NCBI GenBank assembly: GCA_011369465.1
Contig: DRQG01000019.1
Location: 1 to 54,254, forward strand
Length of the DNA: 54,254 nt
Source: Caldithrix abyssi
GTDB lineage: Bacteria; Calditrichota; Calditrichia; Calditrichales; Calditrichaceae
Direction: 5' to 3'
Shown here: positions 39,377 through 40,402 of the stretch, piece after piece
How positions within the stretch are numbered: the stretch's first letter is position 1
Layout: each line of letters begins with the position of its first letter
Position numbers and translations under genes: made by a program
The notes under the pieces: generated by a model
Told to the model about the DNA's origin: nothing
The model's input: the letters and a program-made list of their open reading frames with translations, nothing else
Databases searched by the model: none

Positions 39377-40402
39377 ATGAAAACGATGATACAAATTATT
39401 TTAGGAATTTTGATGACCGTGATCTCATACAAAACCACCCAGGGGCAGCCGGCGCAGGCCAAAGTTGTTGCCGTTATTGACGGCGATGAGATGTATCGGG
39501 TTTTGGCACCGGACGACATCCCGGCTATTCGCGAACCGCAATTTCTTAGCGGCACAGAGGCCGAAGAGCAGATGGCCCCGGATGAACCGGTGATCGCTTT
39601 GCGCATCGGCGGCGAAGCGCGTGCCTACTCGCTTTGGCAATTGGACCGTCATGAAATTGTGAACGATTATCTGGGTGAAACCCCCATCGCCGTAACCTGG
39701 TGACCGCTGTGCCATACGGGCGTAGTTTACGTTCGGGAGATAGAAGGAAAAGAATTGACATTTATTGTTTCGGGCCGTTTATGGCGCAACAGTATGATTA
39801 TGCAGGACGAACAAACCGGAAGCTACTGGAGCCATATAACCGGCGCGGCTCTGCTTGGCGAATTAAAGGGCACTCAGCTCCGTTCACTTACCGCCGTACA
39901 AACCGACTGGGAAAAATGGTACGGCGCCAATCCGGATACCAAAGTATTAAAGAAAGAAGCAGAGATTCGTTCATCCTCGTATGAAGGGTATTTTAACGAT
40001 CCCCGGCGCACCGGTATCTTTCGGGCCCGTTATTTATTGGATCGATTGCCGGGCAAAGAACTGGTGCACGGCCTGCATCTGGGCGTTCATGCTCTGGCCG
40101 TAACCGATGCCTTGATGGAAAAGAAACCCTTCCTGCGCACCAGGCTGAACAATATTCCAATCGTATTGATACGAACAAATGCCGACGGCGTGCGCGCCTT
40201 TGAAGCCGGCGAACACCGTCTGTATCCTGCAGCGGATGAAAAATATTTGCGGGATGAAGCCACCGGTTCTCTGTGGAAGGCGGCAACGGGCCGCTGCGTG
40301 GACGGCCGGCTGCGGGGCAGCGCTTTAAAGGAAATCCCCGTTACCGTGGCCTACTGGTTTGCCTGGAGTAATTTTTATCCTAATACATTGGTACTGGATT
40401 AA
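39377..40402 (+). CDS. DUF3179-family exported protein, candidate selenoprotein (in-frame UGA = Sec109)
   Basis: DUF3179 proteins have unknown function. Read through the TGA at 39701-39703, the frame gives 341 residues with a signal peptide (TQG|Q). Before the TGA: VNDYLGETPIAVTW. After it: PLCHTGVVYVREIEG, TFIVSGRLWRNSMIM, DEQTGSYWSHITG and a C-terminal WFAWSNFYPNTLVLD. Family members carry V-T-Y-C-P-L-C-x-T/S at this point, so the TGA replaces the first Cys of CPLC, giving U-P-L-C. No other stop or frame change interrupts the 233 codons that follow. A SECIS-like hairpin follows the TGA. Alternatives are a sequencing error or a recent nonsense mutation. A UxxC pair in an exported protein would suggest redox chemistry (inference). 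Confidence 0.72.
39704..39735 (+). promoter_or_regulatory. Candidate bacterial SECIS element downstream of the UGA codon
   Basis: CGGGCGTA (39717-39724) pairs with TACGTTCG (39728-39735), an 8-bp stem with two G-U pairs, closed by a GTT loop (39725-39727). The loop starts 21 nt after the TGA. Bacterial SECIS elements are local hairpins inside the reading frame with a short apical loop carrying a G among its first bases, at about this distance from the UGA. Identified by eye; no folding energy was calculated. Confidence 0.55.

Follow-up and report, generated by a model that had tools for sequence, protein, structure and literature searches.

A UGA-containing DUF3179 gene of Caldithrix abyssi as a predicted member of a published selenoprotein family

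The window analysed here, a 54,254-nucleotide stretch of a Caldithrix abyssi assembly (contig DRQG01000019.1), carries a DUF3179 gene that very probably encodes a selenoprotein, and that would appear interrupted because its internal UGA, codon 109, is read as selenocysteine (Sec). This reading, proposed in the initial annotation, was upheld by all of the tests suggested there that were run. The same annotation knew of no earlier account of DUF3179 as a selenoprotein family. Such accounts exist: two reviews (PMC9312934, PMC13188914) include DUF3179 (PF11376), with the motif UxxC/T, among predicted selenoprotein families, and both credit Zhang and Gladyshev 2007 (Olavius algarvensis symbiont). 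A full-text search of the available literature returned no further paper joining selenium and DUF3179. The window gene therefore does not found a new selenoprotein family and is instead a well-supported new member of a published one. What the present analysis adds is a conserved SECIS-type element, the UPLA and UPL[V/I/E/R] motif variants, a half-length and at times tandem subfamily, and, tentatively, a Rieske-like fold.

Results

An open frame with a single UGA at the family motif

The features on which the argument turns are the following.

39377..40402, + strand: seleno-DUF3179 gene (341 residues, predicted Sec109), from the reading frame and the DUF3179 profile match
39650..39652, + strand: His92 codon, invariant in 19/19 full-length homologues aligned
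39701..39703, + strand: in-frame UGA, predicted Sec109, residue 1 of the U-P-L-C motif, from the frame and the homologue alignment
39710..39712, + strand: Cys112 codon, probably the resolving thiol that partners Sec109 in U-x-x-C; C, T and A all occur at this alignment column
39718..39734, + strand: putative bacterial SECIS hairpin, stem 39718-39723 / 39729-39734, from comparative pairing

The frame runs for 341 codons to a TAA, and the stop that had first drawn attention to the gene is its sole internal TGA, in the context AVTW-U-PLCHTGVVY; the two alternative frames of this interval contain 21 and 13 stops. Read with table 11, the interval yields two ORFs (39377-39703 and 39755-40402), just the split that a standard gene caller had been expected to make. 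Family features were said to continue on both sides of the TGA to the C-terminus, and the PF11376 profile indeed matches the read-through protein over positions 2-292 of 292 (253.7 bits against a cut-off of 27, E 3.1e-75). None of the NCBIfam models matches the window protein or the variants tested, and PDB sequence searches detected no relative of it. The hydrophobic N-terminus predicts an export signal at residues 1 to about 23, and the AlphaFold2 model places a helix at residues 2-22.

The source genome encodes the Sec machinery

The source genome (4.3 Mb in 161 contigs, 98.5% complete) encodes a complete Sec machinery: a tRNA-Sec with a UCA anticodon (70.9 bits), SelA (507 bits), SelB (346 bits) and SelD (369 bits). 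Its selD has an in-frame TGA of its own, within the motif ACAGUASK, and is therefore a second selenoprotein gene in this genome. The other DUF3179 gene of the source genome is a Cys form with the motif SYCPLTG and no internal stop. These observations bear on the idea that Trp or some other amino acid is inserted at UGA, or that readthrough occurs without selenium. Any code in which UGA has sense would leave the frame open just as well, but the large genes of the window are open without internal TGA, the full-length non-TGA homologues aligned have Cys rather than Trp at column 109, and the genome has both a tRNA-Sec and a UGA-containing selD. We consider such recoding highly improbable.

UGA and Cys alternate at one column of the family

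Across a survey set of 40 genomes of the class, the source genome included, DUF3179 genes are a mixture of Cys forms and TGA forms, the TGA always falling at one column. The window gene and 27 further distinct genes have the TGA form (28 in all); 27 of them are spread over 13 class genomes, and the remaining one is from a Thermoanaerobaculales MAG (Acidobacteriota; L021). A scan of genome contigs for relatives found two only. One TGA in the first count, in genome G019, sits off the motif in a gene that is CTLC there. The expectation that homologues would show Cys or UGA at this column was thus borne out; the accompanying claim that the whole CPLC motif is conserved held only for its first Cys, which is Cys or Sec in 19/19 aligned full-length proteins, the second position being C, T or A.

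The idea that a sequencing or assembly error turned a Cys codon into TGA draws on the single base that separates TGA from TGC or TGT and on the draft state of the assembly. Against it, TGA occupies the same codon in independent assemblies, including the Acidobacteriota MAG, and is followed there by a SECIS-type hairpin, and this is the least probable of the explanations we considered.

The TGA forms fall into four groups. The UPLC group comprises the window gene and genes from G006, G031 and L021, and six full-length genes with UPLA have no resolving Cys. A half-length, lipoprotein-like group, sometimes in tandem, has UPL followed by V, I, E or R, again without a resolving Cys, and a single divergent DUF3179 gene (L064) has UVVC. 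In three genomes (loci L054, L055 and L056; G033:C115, G024:C170 and G027:C6) tandem half-length genes of about 230 aa with UPLV or UPLI have a lipoprotein-like N-terminus and a resolving position that is neither Cys nor Thr, which places them outside the published UxxC/T; at L056 the motif of a third tandem copy lacks the TGA. A UPLC-type gene in G039 (L045:1207-1896) is missing a middle stretch that includes the UGA region, through either decay or an assembly fault.

Of the 13 class genomes that carry a UGA form, 12 have SelA above the cut-off. The exception is G031, whose UGA-form gene (L034, L101) stands in a genome with no SelA or tRNA-Sec match, perhaps because the assembly is incomplete or mixed. 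In G010 and G011, which are about 72% complete, SelA was found and the tRNA-Sec search gave no match. Neither SelA above the cut-off nor tRNA-Sec was found in the six family f2 genomes, whose DUF3179 motif is only ever the Cys form.

A SECIS-type hairpin follows the UGA in TGA forms

The putative hairpin begins 14 bases past the UGA and pairs positions +17 to +22 with +28 to +33 (first UGA base = 0). In the window gene the apical loop is AGUUU, where nearly all TGA forms have CGUGU; A39724 and U39728 may pair, leaving GUU. The published bacterial SECIS model calls for an apical loop 16-37 nt from the UGA with G and then G or U at its first two positions, and the window hairpin fits both in its loop position and in G39725 and the U that follows.

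Folding of the window sequence alone does not give a hairpin more stable than in shuffled sequences (z +0.20 to -0.73), and equally full pairing arises in 4.7% of synonymous shuffles. We therefore turned to comparative tests, and the case for the hairpin rests on the homologues. Paired cells make up 83-85% in TGA forms (83% in the 28 genes) versus 31% at the same place in 20 Cys genes. Synonymous-codon shuffles pair at a mean of 55%, and 0 of 2000 reach the observed level. Double-changed cells number 19, over four of the six pairs in 26 distinct sequences, against a shuffle mean of 6.1, while the number of pairs so affected is itself unremarkable against shuffles (96 of 500). The register was picked from the same sequences on which it was tested, which biases the comparison in its favor, but slid registers all score far lower, and together with the Cys genes they argue against register choice as the whole of the effect. 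The common register is lost in the UVVC gene. According to the reading that we prefer, SelB would bind this hairpin and deliver Sec-tRNA(Sec), so that Sec is inserted at codon 109 in place of termination, as the machinery and the conserved anatomy suggest.

Purifying selection continues past the UGA

Pairwise comparison of the four UPLC genes gives amino-acid identities of 52-63% for the part before the TGA and 49-54% for the part after it; on either side dN is 0.26-0.51, and dS exceeds 1 or is saturated. Purifying selection thus acts both upstream and downstream of the TGA in these genes, and since dN is well below dS in the downstream part, that part is translated and selected. An ordinary nonsense mutation, with the TGA cutting short a formerly functional Cys protein, would account for a single in-frame stop, the usual mark of recent gene loss, and for the UGA form in G031, where Sec machinery was not detected. 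It fits poorly with selection that persists downstream over deep divergence, with an identical TGA column in 28 distinct genes, with a frame free of any other lesion, and with a hairpin restricted to TGA forms, and we regard a pseudogene as very unlikely.

A protein modeled as mostly beta, with a weak likeness to Rieske domains

According to AlphaFold2, both the full protein (pLDDT 91) and its N-terminal domain, modeled from an alignment with the half-length forms (pLDDT 90), are mostly beta. The best PDB match of the full model is a Rieske protein (probability 1.00, E 0.008, TM 0.55 by target length), as is the top match of the single domain (E 0.05); in both models, built from different alignments, the best matches are mostly Rieske proteins, at E-values that are not significant. 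The two halves of the protein align to each other with a local score of 97, for which no significance was computed, and the half-length forms cover just the first half of the Pfam model. Both observations suggest an internal duplication. His92, invariant among the full-length homologues, is substituted in at least two half-length forms. When a model of residues 28-205 of the window protein was compared with BFVD, the only good matches were two giant-virus proteins that resemble the DUF3179 domain fold, from Indivirus (A0A1V0SD44, E 9.6e-08) and Hokovirus (A0A1V0SF28, E 0.019).

Gene neighborhoods

The window gene lies among genes for an SNase-like protein, a PfkB kinase, a DUF498 protein and a chaperonin, and the neighbors of the three UPLC homologues mostly have no domain assignment; no neighbor common to the window gene and these three points to a pathway. 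The UPLC gene of G006, and of G006 only, lies near genes for a sulfide:quinone reductase and for DsrC-like and DsrE-like proteins (L100:5403-8198); the reductase is of type III and matches an NCBIfam selenoprotein-subtype model (669.7 bits). In two genomes the UPLA-type DUF3179 gene is immediately preceded by one for a pyridine-nucleotide oxidoreductase (L104:2796-4142, L106:2299-3612), a possible partner of the UPLA-type protein.

Discussion

The window gene shares the Pfam domain and, in its UPLC, the UxxC motif with the published DUF3179 selenoproteins. It differs from them in lineage, and its relatives include UPLA, UPLV, UPLI, UPLE and UPLR forms where the published motif is UxxC/T. Among selenoproteins more broadly, a close parallel is the UxxC thiol-disulfide type, such as seleno-thioredoxin, in which a selenol and a resolving Cys three positions on are arranged as in the window protein; the latter is nevertheless predicted to be mostly beta, with no thioredoxin among its best structural matches.

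UxxC is usually read as a redox pair, and a redox role for Sec109 and Cys112 is probable on the strength of the motif. In our prediction the exported, mature protein has two lobes and a beta, weakly Rieske-like architecture. Sec109 and Cys112 would form a selenol/thiol pair, with His92 probably nearby, and a thiol- or peroxide-type reaction in the cell envelope is most likely, judging from the UxxC motif. Because some forms have no second Cys, the resolving partner would be dispensable or supplied from elsewhere.

An alternative, which concerns the proposed function only, is that Sec binds a metal or cofactor within a Rieske-like fold and does not act in thiol-redox catalysis. Rieske proteins are the best, if weak, fold matches in two models, some forms have no resolving Cys, and the spacing H92-x16-U109-x2-C112 resembles the second part of the Rieske ligand motif, C-x-H-x(15-17)-C-x2-H. 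The residues of the window protein at this motif are Asp90, His92, Sec109 and Cys112, however, so that two of the four cluster ligands are missing (Asp90 and Cys112 stand in their places), and neither sequence nor structure scores reach significance. We think a ligand role unlikely. A further possibility, only a little less doubtful, is that DUF3179 arose by duplication and degeneration of a Rieske-like domain and lost the Fe-S cluster, with Cys or Sec at a former ligand position and the neighboring His forming a new redox center. If true, the cell envelope would contain a selenoenzyme whose fold is not that of thioredoxin, some subtypes of which work without a resolving Cys.

The selenoprotein reading restores a single gene where standard callers report two, and UGA-coded DUF3179 emerges as common in this bacterial class. 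The recognizable SECIS element could be used for annotating other UGA-coded DUF3179 genes, and the Sec/Cys/His site, together with the clue from the fold, offers a concrete place to test the function of DUF3179.
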